Below are positions 2,979 through 20,673 of a stretch of DNA of 64,000 nucleotides, in pieces; positions within the stretch are counted from its first letter, which is position 1, and each line of letters opens with the position of its first letter. A model generated the notes under the pieces. That model saw nothing but the letters and a program-made list of their open reading frames with translations. It had not been told where the DNA came from and did not search any database. The translations under genes and the position numbers were made by a program. The DNA comes from Tistrella mobilis (GTDB lineage: Bacteria; Pseudomonadota; Alphaproteobacteria; Tistrellales; Tistrellaceae): NCBI RefSeq assembly GCF_041468085.1, contig NZ_CP121017.1, positions 62,001 through 126,000 of the forward strand, written 5' to 3'.

Positions 2979-3752
2979 TCACTCGCCATAGATGTCGAAG
3001 TTGAACCACTTGTCGTTGATCTGCTTGAAGGTACCGTCGGCGCGGATCGCGGCGATCGCGTCGTTGAACTTGTTCACGAGCGCGGCATCGCCCTTGCGGA
3101 CCGCAACACCGATGCCTTCGCCGTACCACTTCGGATCGGCAACCGGCTTGCCCACGAAATGGAAGCCCTGGCCATCGCTGGTCTTCAGCCAGTCACCCAG
3201 AATCGGCTGGTCGGCGAGCGTGAGGTCGGCACGGCCCGACACCATGTCCAGATTGGCCTGGTCCTGGGTGTCGTAGAGACGGATGTCGCTGTCCTTGTAA
3301 TTGTCTTCCAGGTAGGTGACGTGGGTCGTCGACCGCTGGACCGCAATCACCTTACCGGCAAGTGCCTTGGGAGAAGTGTCGTCATAGGTCTTGTCCTTCG
3401 GCGCCACGAACTGACCCGCCGACAGGGCATACTTGCTGGAGAAGTCCACCGACTGCTTGCGATCCTCGGTGATCGACATGGCAGCAATGATGGCATCATA
3501 TTTGTTGGCGAGAAGGCCGGGAATGATGCCGTCCCAATCCTGGGCGACGATCTCGCACTCCGCCTTCATTTTCGCGCAGAGGGCATTGGCGATGTCGACG
3601 TCGAAGCCGTCGAGCTTGCCCTGCTCGTTCACGAAGTTGAACGGGGGATAGGCACCCTCGGTCGCGATGCGGATCTTGTCGGCCGCGGCAGCACTGCCGG
3701 TGGCCAACCCCAGTCCGATGACGGCGGCGCTCAGGATACGGAAAATGCCCAC
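2979..3752 (-). CDS. HisJ/ArgT-type periplasmic amino acid-binding protein
   Basis: 257 residues. A signal peptide (hydrophobic core to about residue 20, ending GSAAAA) is followed by the SBP_bac_3 fold: IRIATEGAYPPFNF, GFDVDIANALC and AAMSITEDRKQSVDFS, all typical of the lysine-arginine-ornithine/histidine receptor family. It delivers ligand to the two permeases downstream. The start is GTG at 3752 with GGGAG a few bases upstream. It is separated from its ATPase gene by a MarR gene, which is unusual for this family. Confidence 0.92.
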   Translation of the reverse strand: MGIFRILSAAVIGLGLATGSAAAADKIRIATEGAYPPFNFVNEQGKLDGFDVDIANALCAKMKAECEIVAQDWDGIIPGLLANKYDAIIAAMSITEDRKQSVDFSSKYALSAGQFVAPKDKTYDDTSPKALAGKVIAVQRSTTHVTYLEDNYKDSDIRLYDTQDQANLDMVSGRADLTLADQPILGDWLKTSDGQGFHFVGKPVADPKWYGEGIGVAVRKGDAALVNKFNDAIAAIRADGTFKQINDKWFNFDIYGE

Positions 3753-3888
3753 GTGTCGATCTCCCTCGACGATACTCGACCCTCCGCCCCGCCCGGGACC
3801 GGCCCTCAGGCACGGTCCACCGGCTCCCCCGAACCGGCGGCCGGACCCCGCGGGCCTGCCGCTGACGGATGCGGTATTGCTAAGGTCT

Positions 3889-3918
3889 AGTAAAGCCGGG
3901 CCGCAGGGGCCGGTTCAA
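3889..3918 (-). promoter_or_regulatory. Putative promoter for the HisJ-type gene
   Basis: Leftward TTGAAC (3913-3918), 18-base spacer, TTTACT (3889-3894), about 140 bases before the GTG start. The GC-rich spacer contains a GGCC/GGCC dyad. It would let the binding protein and permeases be transcribed separately from the MarR gene upstream. Weak evidence from sequence alone. Confidence 0.35.
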
Positions 3919-3949
3919 CGACAAAACGCGGGCAAGGCCTGTGAAACGG

Positions 3950-4471
3950 TCAGGACGCGTGGGCGGCTGACTCATGCTCGTGATGGGCGTGGCCGGCAAC
4001 CCGCAATGCAGGACGGTCGATCTGGCCAAGCCGGGTCGGATCGGCCGCCAGAACCTCCATCACCTGCCGCCAGGCTTCCGCAGCACCGGGGCCAACGGCC
4101 GCGAAGGCCTTGTCGAGATAGCCGGTCTGCAGGGCCGACAGCCGGGCTTCGAGCTTCGCGCCTTCGTCGCTGAGCCGCACATTCAGCATCCGCCGGTTCG
4201 ACGGCACCGGCGTCAGCAGAACCAGCCCCTGATCCAGCAGCTGGCGCATCGGTCGATGCAGGGCCTGACGCGACACCCTGAGCTTGTCGAGCAGGTCGGT
4301 CAGGGTCATGTCGGGGCCGCCATGCCCCACGAAATACAGAATCCGATGGTGCGACCGGTTCAGCCCCCGTTCGGCCAGAATGCGATCAGGTTCCTCGACG
4401 AGAAACCGAAACGCGAAGTGGAACAATTCCAGATCACGATCGTTGCTGCCGCCCTCAGTGCAGGATGCCAT
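3950..4471 (-). CDS. MarR-family transcriptional regulator
   Basis: 173 residues with a winged helix-turn-helix: LNRSHHRILYFVGHGGPDMT, then DLLDKLRVSRQALHRPMRQL (recognition region, about residues 59-78), then a wing with PSNRRMLNVRLSDEGAKL, the standard MarR layout. A His-rich C-terminal tail (GHAHHEHESAAHAS) could bind metal, though this is only suggestive. ATG 4471 has GGAG 8 bases upstream. The gene sits inside a PAAT transporter locus, between the ATPase and the binding protein, so control of that transporter is the simplest reading. A candidate operator centred on AGTTAACT lies in its own promoter. Confidence 0.88.
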   Translation of the reverse strand: MASCTEGGSNDRDLELFHFAFRFLVEEPDRILAERGLNRSHHRILYFVGHGGPDMTLTDLLDKLRVSRQALHRPMRQLLDQGLVLLTPVPSNRRMLNVRLSDEGAKLEARLSALQTGYLDKAFAAVGPGAAEAWRQVMEVLAADPTRLGQIDRPALRVAGHAHHEHESAAHAS

Positions 4472-14246: not shown

Positions 14247-14966
14247 TCAGAAGTAATCCGGATGGCGCTCCATGATTCGGGCAACGGCACTGAGCGTGCC
14301 GGAAAGATGGCCGCGCACCGCCTCTTCGACCCCGGCAACGTTGCCCGCGTCGATCTGATCCAGGATCCGGCCGTGGTAATCCAGAATCCCCTGGGCCTTG
14401 CCGGGATCGACCAGGTTGAGGGCACGAAGCCGGTCGATATGCCCTGAACGTTCGGCGATCATGTACCAGAGATCGGGGTGGCCGACCGCATCATAGAGCG
14501 CCAGATGGAAATGCCGGTCGAGGGTGGAGAACCGCTCGATATCGCCATCGGCGAAGGCCTGGCCCTGCAGATGCAGCAGACGATGGGCATAGGCGGTCAG
14601 TCCGGCAGGCGCCTGATGACGGGCGATGGTCTTTGCGACCTCGATCTCGATCGCGAGCCGCAGGAACTGGGTTTCGCGCGCATGGGCGATATCGATCTTG
14701 GCGACCACCGTCCGTGACTGGGGAAAGATCTCGACCAGCTTCTCCCGCTCCAGCCGCAGGAAGGCGTCCCGCACCGGCGTCTGGCTGACGGCATATTCCT
14801 CGGCAAGCTGGGTACGGGAGAGCAGGGCTCCGGGCTTCAGCTCCAGGTCGATGATCCGGCGCCGGAGAGCGGCATAGATGCCCTGTGATGCCAGCGGTCG
14901 GCGGTCCAGATCGGCCAGGGTGGCGATATCGGTGAAGTCGGGCAGGACGGATCGCCTGGGGGACAT
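14247..14966 (-). CDS. GntR-family (FadR/FCD) regulator
   Basis: 239 residues from ATG 14966, which has GGGAG 10 bases upstream. An in-frame ATG at 15005 (no Shine-Dalgarno) would add 13 residues. The N-terminal winged helix contains GIYAALRRRIIDLELKPG and LSRTQLAEEYAVSQTPVRDA. The C-terminal FCD domain keeps the metal-site pattern (FSTLDRHFHLALYDAVGH, then HIDRLR and RGHLSGTL). FCD regulators usually sense carboxylic or sugar acids. It is divergent from the TRAP/dehydratase operon, which fits a repressor of that operon. Confidence 0.9.
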   Translation of the reverse strand: MSPRRSVLPDFTDIATLADLDRRPLASQGIYAALRRRIIDLELKPGALLSRTQLAEEYAVSQTPVRDAFLRLEREKLVEIFPQSRTVVAKIDIAHARETQFLRLAIEIEVAKTIARHQAPAGLTAYAHRLLHLQGQAFADGDIERFSTLDRHFHLALYDAVGHPDLWYMIAERSGHIDRLRALNLVDPGKAQGILDYHGRILDQIDAGNVAGVEEAVRGHLSGTLSAVARIMERHPDYF

Positions 14967-15026
14967 GGGCGGCGGGCTCCCTGAAGCACTCTCTTCCCGG
15001 ACCATATCAGATGTTGCGTCCGGGCG

Positions 15027-15092: not shown

Positions 15093-16115
15093 ATGCGCCC
15101 GACGATCACGGCCCTCGCGGGCCTGGCTGCCTGCGCCGTCGCGATGCCCGCCACGGCCGCGACCTACACCATCCAGACGTCGTTCAATGCCGGTGATTTC
15201 TCGACCCAGTATCTGACCGAACACTGGCTGCCGAAGATCGCCGGAATGACCGGCGGCCGGGTGGAAATCACCCTCACCCCCAATGGTTCGGTGGTGCCGG
15301 CCAAGGAAACGCCCCATGCGGTAGGGTTGGGCGTGATCGACGGTGACTGGACCTCGGTCAACTATTTCTCCGGGCTTGAGCCCGCCTTTGCCATTCTGGG
15401 TGATCTCGTCTCAGGTTATGACACGCCCCAGCAGATGGCCGGCTTCTGCGAGACCGGCCCGGGCGAGGCAGTCTGGCAGAAGGCGCTGGACGAGGTTTCC
15501 GATGGCGAGGCCCATCTGGTCGGTTGCGCCCCCTACAGCCGCGAGGCTTTGCCGGCGCGGGTACCGATCCGCACCTTCGAGGACCTGAAGGGCAAGAAGA
15601 TCCGGGCGCCCGAGGGGTTGGCCTCGGCGGTGTTCCAGGCGGCCGGCGCAAGCCCCGTCTCGATTCCATTCTCGGAAGTCTATGGCGCGCTGGAGAAGGG
15701 CATTGTCGATGCGGCGGATGCCTCGGCCTATGTGAACAATGCCAGCACCGGCCTGAACGACGTCGCGCGCTACCCGCTCTATCCCGGCATCCATTCGATG
15801 CCGTCGATGCAGCTCTCGTTCAACCGGGAGAAATGGGAAAAACTCTCGGAAGCCGACCGCAAGGCGCTGCGCGACTGGTTCTATATGGCGATGGCCGATC
15901 TGACGAGGGTGGTGGCCGAACAGGATGCGGCGCTGGCCGCCAAGGATGCCGCTGCCGGCAAGGTCGAGGTGATCGACTGGGCCCAGGCCGATCGCGACAA
16001 GCTGCGCGATGTCGCCCGCATCGAATGGGAAAAGTTCGCAGCCAAGGGCCCGCTCGCCAAGGAGGCGCTGGACGCCAACCTGGCCTATATGAAGCAGATC
16101 GGCCTGCTGAAGTGA
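15093..16115 (+). CDS. TRAP transporter solute-binding protein (DctP family)
   Basis: 340 residues from ATG 15093, with GGAGG seven bases upstream. A signal peptide ends at ATAA near residue 23. The DctP fold follows: VPAKETPHAVGLGVIDG, then LKGKKIRAPEGLASAVFQAA and FSEVYGALEKGIVDAADAS (the ligand-binding Arg is in KIRAPEG by homology), and SFNREKWEKLSEADRKAL. It captures the substrate in the periplasm. The dehydratase downstream suggests a sugar acid such as an aldonate. Confidence 0.92.
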   Translation: MRPTITALAGLAACAVAMPATAATYTIQTSFNAGDFSTQYLTEHWLPKIAGMTGGRVEITLTPNGSVVPAKETPHAVGLGVIDGDWTSVNYFSGLEPAFAILGDLVSGYDTPQQMAGFCETGPGEAVWQKALDEVSDGEAHLVGCAPYSREALPARVPIRTFEDLKGKKIRAPEGLASAVFQAAGASPVSIPFSEVYGALEKGIVDAADASAYVNNASTGLNDVARYPLYPGIHSMPSMQLSFNREKWEKLSEADRKALRDWFYMAMADLTRVVAEQDAALAAKDAAAGKVEVIDWAQADRDKLRDVARIEWEKFAAKGPLAKEALDANLAYMKQIGLLK

Positions 16116-16194
16116 TCACCGGTCGGCCGCGGCACCGCCCGATACGGAGGCTGCCGTGGCCGGCCTGGGTTCAGTTCCGTCAGCGGGAGGCCCG

Positions 16195-16716
16195 ATGAGA
16201 CGGTTCTTCGCCTGCTGCGCCGCGGCCATGGACCGGGTGAGCGTCTTCACCGGCCAGGCCTGCGCGTCGCTGCTCTTCGCCTGCATCGCCTTCTCGGCCC
16301 TGGAAGTGGTGATGCGCTATGGCTTCGATCATCCGACCAGCTGGTCGATCGAGGTCACCATGGCCCTCTGTGCCACGGCCTGGGTGCTCTCGGTCGGTTA
16401 TGTTACAGAGCGCAACCGCCACATCTCGATCACCATGCTCGAAATCCTGGTCGGCCCGAAGCTCTGGCGCCGCTTCCGCCTGATCCAGATCCTGGTGTCG
16501 ATCGGCGCCGTGACCGGCCTGATCCTGGCGATCTGGAGCCCGGCCATGCGGGTGATCGCGCGGCCGGAATATTCCGGCACGGCACTCAATTCCATTCAGC
16601 CCAGCTACCTGAAGGTCGTGCTGCTGGCGGGGTGCGTGCTCTATGTTGCGCAGCTCTTCGCCAACCTGATCCGCTGGTGCCAGGGGACCGAGAAGGAAGA
16701 CGGCGGTGGGCATTGA
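16195..16716 (+). CDS. TRAP transporter small permease (DctQ family)
   Basis: 173 residues from ATG 16195 (GGGAGG just upstream). GTG 16156, which also has GGAGG, would add 13. Four membrane spans are predicted by eye, with the DctQ signature VMRYGFDHPTSWSIEVTMAL near residues 38-57 and RNRHISITML after it. It pairs with the large permease, which it overlaps by 11 bases. Confidence 0.88.
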   Translation: MRRFFACCAAAMDRVSVFTGQACASLLFACIAFSALEVVMRYGFDHPTSWSIEVTMALCATAWVLSVGYVTERNRHISITMLEILVGPKLWRRFRLIQILVSIGAVTGLILAIWSPAMRVIARPEYSGTALNSIQPSYLKVVLLAGCVLYVAQLFANLIRWCQGTEKEDGGGH

Positions 16717-18022
16717 GATCATCACCATCCTGATCGTCCTGGGGCTGCTGGCTCTGATGGCGATCGGCATCCCGCTCGGCGTCACCACGCTTACGGTGTC
16801 GCTGGTGACGGCGGTGCTCTATTTCGGTGAACGTGCCGGCTTCTTCATCGTTTCGGCCAATGTCACCGAGGTTCTGCACAAATACGAACTGATCGCCGTA
16901 CCGTTCTTCGTGTTCATGGCCAATGTGCTGGAGCGGTCGGGGATCGCGCATACGCTGTTCGAAAGCATGGCGATCCTGGGCGGGCGTTTCCGCGGCTCGG
17001 TCGCGGTGCAGACGACGGTGGTGGCCGTGGTCCTGGCCGCGATGAGCGGCATCATGGGCGGCGAGATCGTAATGCTGGGGCTGATTGCCCTGCCGCAGAT
17101 GCTGCGCCTCGGCTATGACCGCAAGATGTCGATCGGCATCATCTGTGCCGCCGGTGCGCTGGCGACCCTGATCCCGCCTTCGGTGGTGCTGATCGTCTAC
17201 GGGTTGGCCGCCCAGGTCTCGATCACGAAACTGTTCGCGGCTTCGGCTGTGCCGGGGCTGCTGCTCGCCTCTCTGTTCATCGCCTATGTGCTGGTGCGGG
17301 TGCGGCTCAACCCCTCGCTGGCGCCGATCTACGACATCCCCGAGACGGGCCTGCCCTTCGTGCAGCGCCTGCGCTTCCTGAACGGGGCCGTCCTGCCGGC
17401 CGTGCTGATCATGGCGGTGCTGGGGGTGATCTACAGCGGCGTCGCCACAGTGACCGAGGCGGCGGCAATCGGCGCGGTCGGCGCGCTGGTGGTCGCAGCC
17501 GTGCGGGGTGAACTTTCCTGGGCGATGACCCGCGACGCGATGCGGCGAACGGCGCTCACCGTCGGTTCGATCATCTGGCTGGTGCTGGGGGCGGTGTCGC
17601 TGATCGGCATCTACAACCGGATCGGTGGCGGCGACTTCCTGCGCGGCATGCTCACCTCGCTGGACATCGCGCCGATCTGGGTGATCGTGGTGATGATGGC
17701 GATCGTGATGGTGCTGGGCACCTTCCTTGAATGGATCGCCATCCTGTTCATCACCGTGCCGATCTTCGCACCCGTGGTTCAGGATCTGGGCTACGACCCG
17801 GTCTGGTTCGGCGTGCTGTTCGCGATGAACATCCAGATCTACTACCTGTCGCCGCCCTTCGGTCCGGCCTGTTTCTTTCTGAAATCGGTGGCGCCCAAGG
17901 ATGTCGAACTGCAGGAGATCTTCGCCGCGGTGATGCCGTTCATCGCCCTGCAGATCGTCGGCCTGCTGCTGGTGCTGGCCTTCCCCGACATCGCCCTCTG
18001 GCTACCCTCGCTGGTGGAATAA
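16706..18022 (+). CDS. TRAP transporter large permease (DctM family)
   Basis: 438 residues with about 12 hydrophobic spans. Family marks include YELIAVPFFVFMANVLERSG, the GxxxPPS-like ATLIPPSVVLIVYGL, and QIYYLSPPFGPACFFLKS near the C-terminus. It starts at GTG 16706 inside the end of the small-permease gene. As the Na+- or H+-driven channel subunit it transports the ligand handed over by DctP. Confidence 0.92.
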   Translation: MGIEIITILIVLGLLALMAIGIPLGVTTLTVSLVTAVLYFGERAGFFIVSANVTEVLHKYELIAVPFFVFMANVLERSGIAHTLFESMAILGGRFRGSVAVQTTVVAVVLAAMSGIMGGEIVMLGLIALPQMLRLGYDRKMSIGIICAAGALATLIPPSVVLIVYGLAAQVSITKLFAASAVPGLLLASLFIAYVLVRVRLNPSLAPIYDIPETGLPFVQRLRFLNGAVLPAVLIMAVLGVIYSGVATVTEAAAIGAVGALVVAAVRGELSWAMTRDAMRRTALTVGSIIWLVLGAVSLIGIYNRIGGGDFLRGMLTSLDIAPIWVIVVMMAIVMVLGTFLEWIAILFITVPIFAPVVQDLGYDPVWFGVLFAMNIQIYYLSPPFGPACFFLKSVAPKDVELQEIFAAVMPFIALQIVGLLLVLAFPDIALWLPSLVE

Positions 18023-18032
18023 GGAGGCATCG

Positions 18033-18197
18033 ATGCGACCCCACGACCCGATCCAGGATCAGGACGAGGCGGTGACCGCCGCCGCTTTCGCCGCGGAAGA
18101 AGCGGCCGAGGGCTTCGATTTCGGCAACTGGCCCGAAATCATCGGCGCCCTCGCCGCCGGCGCCCTCACCTGGCTGATCTTCGTCTTCACCGGATGA
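18033..18197 (+). CDS. 54-residue single-span membrane protein inside the TRAP/dehydratase operon
   Basis: Not recognised. ATG 18033 has AAGGAGG eight bases upstream, directly after the DctM stop, and the TGA overlaps the dehydratase ATG (ATGA). The N-terminal two thirds are acidic and Ala-rich (DQDEAVTAAAFAAEEAAEGF), then FGNWPEII leads into one hydrophobic segment (GALAAGALTWLIFVF, about residues 38-52) ending Thr-Gly. By charge, the acidic part should face the cytoplasm or, less likely, the periplasm. Strong translation signals and tight packing make it a probable real gene. It may be an extra subunit or stabiliser of the TRAP permease. Confidence 0.7.
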   Translation: MRPHDPIQDQDEAVTAAAFAAEEAAEGFDFGNWPEIIGALAAGALTWLIFVFTG

Positions 18198-19933
18198 CCC
18201 CCATGACCAGAACCTATGACGAGCTGCGTTCGGCGCGCTGGTTCGCGCCCGACAATTTCCGCGGCTTCGGGCACCGCTCCCGAACCCTGCAGATGGGCTA
18301 TGACGAGCAGGACTGGGTGGGCAAGCCGGTGGTGGCGATCCTGAACACCTGGTCCGACATCAATCCCTGCCACCAGCATTTCAGGCAGCGCGTCGACGAC
18401 GTGAAGCGCGGCGTGTTCCAGGCCGGCGGCTTCCCGATTGAGTTGCCGGCGCTGTCGGTCAGCGAGAATTACGTCAAGCCGACGACGATGCTCTATCGCA
18501 ACATGCTGGCGATGGAGACCGAAGAGCTGATCCGCTCTCACCCGGTCGACGGCGTGGTGCTGATGGGCGGCTGCGACAAGACCACCCCGGGTCTGGTGAT
18601 GGGCGCGATCTCGGCCGGGCTGCCGGCGATCTATCTGCCGGCGGGGCCGATGCTGCGCGGCAATTGGGAGGGGCGCACCTTGGGCTCCGGTTCGGATGCC
18701 TTCAAATACTGGGATGAGCGCCGCGCCGGCACCATCACCGAGGCGCAGTGGAAGGGCATGGAGCGGGGCATCGCGCGCTCCTACGGCCATTGCATGACCA
18801 TGGGTACGGCATCGACCATGACGGCGATCGCCGAGGCCCTGGGCCTGACCCTGCCGGGTGCCTCTTCCATCCCGGCGGCTGATTCCAATCACATCCGCAT
18901 GTCGGCGGAGTGCGGGCGGCGGATCGTCGGCATGATCTGGGAGGATCTGACCCCGGCAAAGATCCTGACCGCTGCGGCTTTCGACAATGCGGTGACGGTC
19001 GCCATGGCCACCGGCTGCTCGACCAATGCGGTGGTGCATCTGATCGCCATGGCCCGGCGGGCAGGGGTTGACCTCACCCTCGACGATCTGGACGCCAAAA
19101 GCCGGGTGACCCCGGTGATCGCCAATGTCCGCCCGGCCGGCTCCACCTATCTGATGGAGGATTTCTTCTATGCAGGTGGCCTGCGGGCGCTGATGGCGCG
19201 GCTGGGGGACCGGCTGCACCGCGATTGCCTGACCGTCACCGGCCGCAGGCTGGGCGAGGAGATCGAAGGTGCCGAGGTCTGGAACGACGACGTCATCCGC
19301 ACGGTCGACAATCCGATCTATCACGAGGGCTCGCTCGCCGTCCTGAAGGGCAATCTTGCCCCCGACGGTGCCGTGATCAAGCCGGTCGCCTGCGACCCGA
19401 AATTCCTGGTCCATGAAGGGCCGGCCATGGTCTTCGACAGCTATCCCGAACTGAAGGAGAAGCTGGACGACGAGGACTGGGACATCACGCCCGATGCCGT
19501 GCTGGTGCTACGCAATGCCGGCCCCAAGGGCGGGCCGGGCATGCCCGAATGGGGCATGATCCCGATGCCCAGGGCGCTGCTGAAGCAGGGCTGCCGCGAT
19601 ATGGTGCGGCTGTCGGACGCCCGGATGTCGGGGACGTCGTTCGGTGCCTGCGTGCTGCATGTGGCGCCGGAATCCTATGTCGGCGGGCCGCTCGCTTTGC
19701 TGCGGACCGGCGATATCGTGCGCCTCGACGTGCCCGGCCGCCGGTTGGACATGCTGGTCGAGGATGACGAGATCGCCCGGCGCCGGGCGGCCTGGACTCC
19801 GCCGCCGCCGCGCTTCCATCGCGGCTGGGGCTGGATGTTCACCAATCACATTCAGCAGGCCGATAAGGGTTGCGATTTCGACTATCTGGAAACGTCCTTC
19901 GGGGCGCCCGTCGACGAACCCGTGATCTATTGA
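18194..19933 (+). CDS. IlvD/Edd-family sugar-acid dehydratase
   Basis: 579 residues; M4 at 18203 is an alternative start. The family's three iron-sulfur cysteines are present (C59 in NPCHQHF, C127 in MGGCDKTTPG, C200 in GHCMTMGTAST), as is the catalytic-Ser region MSGTSFGACVLHVAPE. Length and segments such as SENYVKPTTMLYRN and EGRTLGSGSDAFKYWDE resemble aldonate dehydratases (arabinonate, xylonate, galactonate types) more than branched-chain dihydroxyacid dehydratase. Expected reaction: aldonate to 2-keto-3-deoxy sugar acid, in the cytoplasm. The neighbours (TRAP importer, RraA-like protein) support catabolism. Which sugar acid is unknown. Confidence 0.88.
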   Translation: MTPMTRTYDELRSARWFAPDNFRGFGHRSRTLQMGYDEQDWVGKPVVAILNTWSDINPCHQHFRQRVDDVKRGVFQAGGFPIELPALSVSENYVKPTTMLYRNMLAMETEELIRSHPVDGVVLMGGCDKTTPGLVMGAISAGLPAIYLPAGPMLRGNWEGRTLGSGSDAFKYWDERRAGTITEAQWKGMERGIARSYGHCMTMGTASTMTAIAEALGLTLPGASSIPAADSNHIRMSAECGRRIVGMIWEDLTPAKILTAAAFDNAVTVAMATGCSTNAVVHLIAMARRAGVDLTLDDLDAKSRVTPVIANVRPAGSTYLMEDFFYAGGLRALMARLGDRLHRDCLTVTGRRLGEEIEGAEVWNDDVIRTVDNPIYHEGSLAVLKGNLAPDGAVIKPVACDPKFLVHEGPAMVFDSYPELKEKLDDEDWDITPDAVLVLRNAGPKGGPGMPEWGMIPMPRALLKQGCRDMVRLSDARMSGTSFGACVLHVAPESYVGGPLALLRTGDIVRLDVPGRRLDMLVEDDEIARRRAAWTPPPPRFHRGWGWMFTNHIQQADKGCDFDYLETSFGAPVDEPVIY

Positions 19934-19947
19934 AGGCAGGCCGTCAG

Positions 19948-20673
19948 ATGACCGGATATCCGTTGAAGGACGAGACACGCGCGAAGCTTGCCCGTGTCTC
20001 GACCGCTTCGCTCGCGACCGCGCTGTTCAAGCGCGGCCTGCGCAACCAGTTCATTCAGGGAGCATTGCCAGTGGCCTGGAAGGGCCTGACCATGGTCGGC
20101 CCGGCCTTCACGCTCCGCTACATTCCCGCCCGGGAGGATCGCAACCCGATCACGGTCTTCCGCGATCCGGAGCACAGGCAGCGTGTGGCGGTGGAGACCT
20201 GCCCGCCGGGCCATGTGCTGGTGATCGATGCCCGCAAGGATGCGCGCGCCGCATCGGCCGGCTCGATCCTGGTCACCCGGCTCCAGATGCGCGGCTGCGC
20301 CGGCATCGTCACCGATGGCGGTTTCCGGGACGCCGAGGGCATCGGCCGGCTGGATATGCCGGCCTATCATGCCCGTCCCTCGGCACCCACCAACCTGACT
20401 TTGCACGAAGCGATCGAGATCGACGGGCCGATCGCCTGCGGCGACGTCGCGGTCTTCCCCGGCGACGTGCTGGTCGGTGATGCCGATGGGGTGATGGTGA
20501 TCCCGGCCCATCTTGCCGACGAGCTGGCGGAGGAATCCACGGCCATGGAGAGCTACGAGGATTTCGTGCTGGAGCGGGTGAAGGCGGGGGCGGCGATCAT
20601 CGGCCTCTATCCGGCGACGAAACAGGACTCACTCGATGCCTATGAAATCTGGCGGCAGACGACCGGGCGGTGA
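19948..20673 (+). CDS. RraA-like / HMG-aldolase-fold protein
   Basis: 241 residues from ATG 19948. The RraA/MenG fold is shown by MRGCAGIVTDGGFRDAEGI, with the conserved Asp-Gly and Arg-Asp used for metal and substrate in the aldolase relatives, and VFPGDVLVGDADGVMVIPAH. The fold is shared by the RNase E regulator RraA and by 4-hydroxy-4-methyl-2-oxoglutarate/oxaloacetate aldolases. In a dehydratase operon a role on a 2-keto acid is far more likely than RNase regulation. It is 14 bases after the dehydratase. Confidence 0.85.
   Translation: MTGYPLKDETRAKLARVSTASLATALFKRGLRNQFIQGALPVAWKGLTMVGPAFTLRYIPAREDRNPITVFRDPEHRQRVAVETCPPGHVLVIDARKDARAASAGSILVTRLQMRGCAGIVTDGGFRDAEGIGRLDMPAYHARPSAPTNLTLHEAIEIDGPIACGDVAVFPGDVLVGDADGVMVIPAHLADELAEESTAMESYEDFVLERVKAGAAIIGLYPATKQDSLDAYEIWRQTTGR

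Follow-up and report, generated by a model that had tools for sequence, protein, structure and literature searches.

A small acidic membrane protein encoded with one clade of DctP-type TRAP transporters, a candidate accessory subunit

Results

A small gene between a TRAP permease and a dehydratase

The window (the whole stretch of 64,000 nucleotides of Tistrella mobilis DNA that was analysed) carries a set of TRAP transporter genes that opens with dctP, encoding the substrate-binding protein (15093..16115, plus strand; PF03480, 9e-39; nearest solved structure 4pe3, 1.1e-68). On the same strand follow dctQ, the small permease subunit (16195..16716; PF04290, 1e-16), and dctM, the large permease subunit (16706..18022; PF06808, 1.5e-76; TIGR00786, 291.8 bits against a cut-off of 268.45). 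The dctQ start at 16195 was read from the sequence, and the family search was run on the longer open reading frame from 16156. With a DctP-family binding protein and a DctQ alongside DctM, this is a DctP-type TRAP system. Its DctM is 99% identical to that of Tistrella mobilis, the nearest named relative.

Immediately behind dctM lies the gene studied here, which we call S. It extends from ATG to TGA at 18033..18197 on the plus strand and encodes an acidic, single-pass protein of 54 amino acids, proposed below as a fourth component of a TRAP clade. The stop codon of dctM (TAA, 18020-18022) is overlapped by a Shine-Dalgarno sequence, AAGGAGG (18021..18027, plus strand), and ten bases (18023-18032) separate it from the ATG of S. 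At the other end, the stop of S overlaps, in the sequence ATGA (18194-18197), the start of an L-arabinonate-dehydratase-type enzyme of the IlvD/EDD family (18194..19933, plus strand; NF009559, 1103 bits against 882). The remaining neighbours are an RraA-like protein (19948..20673, plus strand; NF006093, 342.9 bits against 208) and a divergent GntR/FCD regulator (14247..15005, minus strand; PF07729, PF00392). Positions 15093-20673 look like an operon for the uptake and breakdown of a sugar acid. A 451-aa open reading frame on the minus strand (18059-19414), antisense to S and the dehydratase, is probably a shadow frame of high-GC coding DNA.

A preliminary description had reported an open reading frame here, between a TRAP permease and a sugar-acid dehydratase. 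Its coordinates, its length of 54 residues and both neighbours were verified, as were the strong AAGGAGG site, the start 10 bases past the dctM stop and the ATGA overlap. The same description spoke of an acidic N-terminal part and one C-terminal span; residues 1-35 are indeed strongly acidic, and hydrophobicity peaks over residues 36-54 (Kyte-Doolittle mean 2.02).

S is a protein-coding gene under purifying selection

In the 11 kb of the window examined, the listing of open reading frames contains 84 of at least 50 aa that overlap this region. Long chance frames abound in GC-rich DNA, so the length of S by itself is no proof of a gene; since frames of this size are common here, its conservation was examined. 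S is present in all three genomes of the genus (including that of the window), and the other two copies are 85-87% identical.

The ratio of nonsynonymous to synonymous change (dN/dS, or w) was pooled over 21 pairs of close relatives from ten groups (25 sequences), which were selected by closeness, with none dropped. It was 0.12 in frame, compared with 1.7 and 3.4 when the frame was shifted by one or two bases, which rules out a chance open reading frame. In the same pairs, differences at the three codon positions numbered 61, 27 and 197. One pair, Aurantimonas/Fulvimarina, was an exception with a neutral ratio (w of 1.08), based on only five changes. S is thus protein-coding and under purifying selection. 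The preliminary description had named a neutral frame in related genomes as grounds for abandoning its reading, and this comparison came out in favour of a gene. On plasmids, two relatives with the short form bear the annotation 'hypothetical protein' (MALG_04920 and RDV64_RS23210).

An acidic tail, a juxtamembrane motif and a single helix

Seventy S proteins (68 same-strand relatives plus L056 and L116) span 39-65 aa, each with one hydrophobic span and with an N-terminal tail whose net charge averages -7.8 (range -12 to -2). In the alignment of 65 long forms, the motif FGNWPE (codons 30-35; 18120..18137, plus strand) stands just before the predicted C-terminal transmembrane helix (residues 36-54; 18138..18194, plus strand), which is supported by hydropathy, by the alignment and by an AlphaFold helix at residues 33-53. 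G31, P34 and G38 are invariant in all 65 sequences, and F30 (61/65), W33 (64/65), E35 (61/65) and W47 (59/65) are also conserved. Within the tail there is a further motif, LTRQDED, which Tistrella carries in altered form. The window protein has all the features that define the family, namely an acidic tail, the FG.WPE motif (here FGNWPE) and a single C-terminal helix.

The AlphaFold model (mean pLDDT 80.3, pTM 0.42) gives this helix with confidence and adds two weaker helices in the tail. A conserved face of the helix was not significant, as 1330 of 5000 shuffles reached the observed moment.

The hydrophobic span ends at most one residue from the C-terminus in 11 of the 12 rows shown. Tail-anchored proteins typically carry their span at the very C-terminus, and we therefore favour an orientation with the N-terminus inside. 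Lysine or arginine is found just before FGNWPE in 44/65 long forms and within the last three residues in 11/65, a distribution that leans towards the same topology but is not proof of it. Altogether we regard the N-in orientation as somewhat more probable than its opposite.

S directly follows dctM in all close relatives

A direct search of genome contigs with the window S protein gave no match. Relatives were found instead through their neighbour, with an alignment of DctM as bait in a scan of one genome per species (84,980 species), from which the best 80 of 250 confirmed loci were kept. Among these 80, the 64 loci whose DctM is at least 75% identical to that of the window all have S behind dctM, in the same orientation.

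The family profile (A4) recovers all 64 of these loci, from which, together with the window, it had been built; two checks are independent of it. One is a listing by motif, which showed 63 of the 64, the S of L100 being read from the DNA. (Rules on motif and start together also caught 63; L056, which their length limit excluded, is visible in the motif listing.) The other, a profile-free rule, asked for a start at most 130 nt past dctM, a length of 35-70 aa, one hydrophobic span and a Shine-Dalgarno sequence. It was positive in 62/64 of these loci and in 0/19 class-survey loci from neighbouring DctM groups (DctM 49-57% identical).

Among the 68 same-strand relatives, S starts 8-19 nt past the dctM stop in 61, and a Shine-Dalgarno match of at least four bases precedes it in 66. 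In three Jiella loci (L050, L051 and L057) the start lies 71-113 nt past dctM, so tight coupling between the two genes is not universal. On plasmids, a tblastn search with the window S gave two weak partial matches (E 0.05 and 0.4), each located downstream of a dctM relative.

S stays with the transporter when the genes are rearranged

The remaining 16 of these 80 loci have a DctM that is 58-64% identical to that of the window. S was found for 15 of them, in four arrangements. In six it again follows dctM (L115, L116, L119, L121, L126, L127). In six others it lies on the opposite strand, beyond the end of dctM (L112, L113, L114, L117, L118, L125), with its near end 43-202 nt from dctM in five of them and about 820 nt away in L112. 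In L122 it precedes dctP, with dctQM divergent, and two loci have it at another place in the assembly (L123, and L124, there at a contig end). No S was seen within the 9.3 kb examined at L120.

The convergent form, EDPNDPMPDRMNIWTT..GY, is encoded on the minus strand and faces dctM in L113, L114, L117, L118, L125 and L112. Two further genomes, G110 (L140) and G037 (L142), have S immediately before dctP, with dctQM in the opposite direction.

Comparison of profiles gave 97.3% for the long against the short form and 96.2% for the short against the convergent form. The long and convergent forms compared directly gave 11.7%, which is weak alone, so their link rests on the short form as an intermediate. 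A short-form profile made without convergent members recovered the convergent S in G287.

S occurs with both split and fused DctQ and DctM. In L119, L121, L126 and L127 it follows a fused QM frame (about 672-713 aa), and in L131 (an Acuticoccus plasmid) it follows the fused gene; QM is also fused in L122, where S stands before dctP. L109 passed the length rule for fusion but was excluded, as its dctQ and dctM are in different reading frames. Across these loci, S stays with the transporter genes when the gene order or the neighbouring enzyme differs.

S occurs with one DctM clade

Of 385 genomes of the class, 11 encode a DctM at least 58% identical to that of the window. The same 11, plus G337, have an S match to the long or short profile at E up to 1e-4, a threshold picked after the match list was known. 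The match in G337 lies inside a 311-aa frame and was counted as spurious. At E 0.1 the short profile matches 69/385 genomes, and beyond the true ones nearly all matches are inside long frames; matches of the window S itself in other class genomes, at E 0.088-0.84, had low scores and were taken as noise.

In each genome this survey scored at most 17-18 first-look candidates for S, and 4 for DctM. The window's own genome yielded one S at E 0.01 and, among 44 first-look candidates, three DctM matches at E 1e-80. The survey and the scan share species (G041/L067, G266/L075, G287/L125, G195/L123) and are not independent.

A quick tree of 67 DctM sequences, drawing on 40 of the 80 loci, was rooted on 19 that lack S. 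A branch with a support of 100 set the other 48 apart; of these, L120 was labelled as having S from its clade, no S having been found at that locus, and L123 and L124 from whole-genome matches. The window DctM falls inside this S-bearing clade. In the sets searched, S is restricted to one DctM clade.

The neighbouring enzyme varies

In most alphaproteobacterial loci S is closely followed by an IlvD/EDD dehydratase. Of the 69 same-strand loci compared (L116 not among them), 56 have this enzyme behind S. Its first possible start is at most 11 nt past S in 54 of the 56, so the enzyme is closely linked there; in the other two the distance is 44 nt (L127) and 243 nt (L075). An ATGA overlap like that in the window is present in 4/56 loci.

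The 13 loci without the dehydratase are L071 (where the sequence continues for 274 nt only), L119 and all 11 from Halomonadaceae. No IlvD/EDD relative was found anywhere in these 11 Halomonadaceae stretches, three of which end 0.4-1.7 kb behind dctM. Among the 16 distant loci, the enzyme follows S in four (L115, L121, L126, L127), and in L116 it is present only upstream of dctP. S is kept where the IlvD/EDD enzyme is absent, and its constant partner is therefore the transporter.

Some Halomonadaceae operons have other enzymes. Behind S, L102, L104 and L110 encode a glucarate-dehydratase-like protein of the enolase type, below the model cut-off; in L107 a glucarate-dehydratase-like gene lies upstream and a further TRAP set follows S, and L102 has a KdgD-type gene upstream. 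These gene neighbourhoods (L102, L104, L107, L110) suggest a substrate of the glucarate or galactarate type.

S matches no curated family

We compared 65 long, 9 short and 5 convergent forms of S with Pfam and NCBIfam. No curated family scored above its cut-off, and neither DctQ nor DctM models were among the matches. The long forms gave chance-level matches to three Pfam families and one NCBIfam family, with one member each, and the short forms gave YqzM at 0.047 (2 members) and one NCBIfam match at 0.09; the convergent forms had no match. Against the PDB, the long-form profile returned two chance-level matches (E 1.4 and 1.6), and the short form none up to E 1.

The KdpF model weakly matched 1 of the 65 long forms (E 0.012). 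Relatedness to KdpF was rejected, given a score below the curated cut-off and the TRAP context of S.

No small fourth TRAP membrane protein appeared among the matches listed in a literature search covering titles and opening lines of abstracts of open-access journal articles. Leads in PMC9006882, PMC12632250, PMC10117765 and PMC8276074 were of no help in placing S.

Discussion

S as a component of the transporter

TRAP transporters are described, in the excerpts of the cited papers, as systems of three subunits in which Q and M are sometimes fused (PMC9971032, PMC10942642, PMC5812351). The S operon has a clear DctP, DctQ and DctM, as do known DctPQM systems (e.g., SiaPQM; structures 7qha/8b01 and 7qe5), but unlike those, as described there, its clade adds a further gene. 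A fourth gene in a TRAP operon is not without parallel: in TeaABCD of Halomonas elongata the additional, modulating gene encodes TeaD, described as a universal stress family protein that binds ATP and not, like S, as a single-pass membrane protein (PMC9006882).

The preliminary description had proposed that S is a fourth, small membrane component of TRAP systems. This proposal is now well supported by the conservation of the gene, its exclusive association with one clade and its persistence through rearrangement, and we consider it very likely that S is a dedicated TRAP component. Taken as a whole, the comparative data make it fairly probable that S is a dedicated accessory subunit of one DctP-type TRAP clade, with an inferred mechanism.

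In the arrangement that we propose, S would be inserted in a tail-anchored-like manner, with the acidic N-terminal tail in the cytoplasm and the helix ending at the periplasmic face. The FGNWPE collar and the helix positions G38, W47 and F50 could then bind the DctQ-DctM scaffold; direct binding to QM seems to us the better bet, with considerable room for doubt. S may aid the assembly, stability or movement of the QM complex, in analogy with KdpF and AcrZ, which serve larger transporters. KdpF, the small subunit of the Kdp potassium pump, is, like S, a tiny one-helix companion of a large membrane transporter. The likeness is one of function: KdpF belongs to another transporter, whereas the long acidic tail and the FGNWPE motif are features of S. 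The earlier idea that S regulates or stabilises the permease is plausible, and we give an even chance to stabilising or modulating QM being its chief job.

Should one clade need a fourth part, studies of its transporters that use just P, Q and M would be incomplete, and the small subunit would then offer a way into the question of what stabilises or gates QM. The clade is found in many Alphaproteobacteria and in Halomonadaceae. It is also worth noting that a gene of 39-65 residues became recognisable through its loyalty to a single transporter clade.

Other explanations

The strongest competitor to an accessory subunit is a regulatory micropeptide, one that would bind DctQM transiently or recruit a protease or insertase, with the acidic tail tuning the activity or turnover of the permease. 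It predicts the same genetics, and the small size of S, its own strong ribosome site and the conservation of its tail beyond mere acidity (LTRQDED, EF..EE) all fit it. The close coupling behind dctM in 61/68 relatives suggests matched synthesis, which is more typical of a subunit, and we consider the micropeptide unlikely, though worth keeping in mind. Much less probable is that S has its own function in the cell and is merely carried in the operon. The copy lying away from dctM in G195/L123 would suit such a role; yet at E up to 1e-4, one spurious frame apart, none of the 385 genomes has S without the DctM clade, and S adjoins TRAP genes in several different arrangements. As improbable, in our judgement, is a role as an anchor that holds the cytoplasmic sugar-acid dehydratase to the permease. 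The preliminary description had offered such a scaffold as an option, and it draws on the position of S between dctM and the dehydratase, on the overlap in the window and on the enzyme standing behind S in 56/69 loci, within 11 nt in 54. That linkage holds and leaves some weight to an enzyme-linked role, but the scaffold itself is less likely: the enzyme was not detected in 11/11 Halomonadaceae stretches (three of which stop 0.4-1.7 kb past dctM), is replaced behind S by a glucarate-dehydratase-like protein in L102, L104 and L110, does not follow S in L119 and lies only upstream of dctP in L116. Moreover, S itself stands before dctP in G110 and G037 and on the other strand in six loci.

Two further possibilities can be given very little weight. 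Fused DctQM permeases have one extra membrane helix, according to the available excerpts (PMC10942642, PMC5812351), and S would likewise add a single helix to the membrane part of the transporter, so it might be that fusion helix in detached form. This is mostly refuted by the presence of S alongside fused QM in L119, L121, L126, L127, L122 and the Acuticoccus plasmid. Least probable of all is that S is a chance frame or serves to couple translation of dctM to that of the dehydratase. High-GC DNA is rich in long chance frames, and the tight spacing to both neighbours would fit coupling, but these are outweighed by the in-frame w of 0.12 against 1.7 and 3.4, by an amino-acid motif kept across Alphaproteobacteria and Halomonadaceae, and by the copies of S before dctP and on the opposite strand.

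A possible transfer of the tail

Returning to S as an accessory subunit, one sub-clade may bear on what its tail does. In L121, L127 and L131 the tail of S is very short (8-9 residues measured in L121 and L127). In the same loci DctQ has a long N-terminal extension (from 3248 in L121, 3269 in L127 and 4254 in L131), with a net charge of -6 in L121 and -9 in L127; in L131 it is acidic by eye. In 12 of 13 long-tail loci examined, the DctQ tail has 0-13 residues and a net charge of 0 to +2. The exception is L064, from a Hoeflea metagenome-assembled genome, in which the dctQ frame (about 3493-4005) looks frameshifted near its start.

DctQ is described, in the portion of the paper available, as having four helices and a cytoplasmic C-terminus (PMC5812351), and its N-terminus should therefore also be cytoplasmic. 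It is tempting to assume that the acidic tail moved from S to the N-terminus of DctQ in this sub-clade, but the pattern represents one evolutionary event and is only suggestive.

A more far-reaching picture, which we put forward as speculative and on balance doubtful, is that of an obligately four-part TRAP clade. There S would be stoichiometric, its helix would complete the QM scaffold, and the acidic tail, handed to the N-terminus of DctQ in the one sub-clade, would take part in the elevator cycle or in the release of substrate or sodium.

One member of this sub-clade, L127, comes from an actinomycete record (Enemella evansiae), and its fused-QM/S operon is close to that of Stappia. Its presence there may reflect transfer or contamination.
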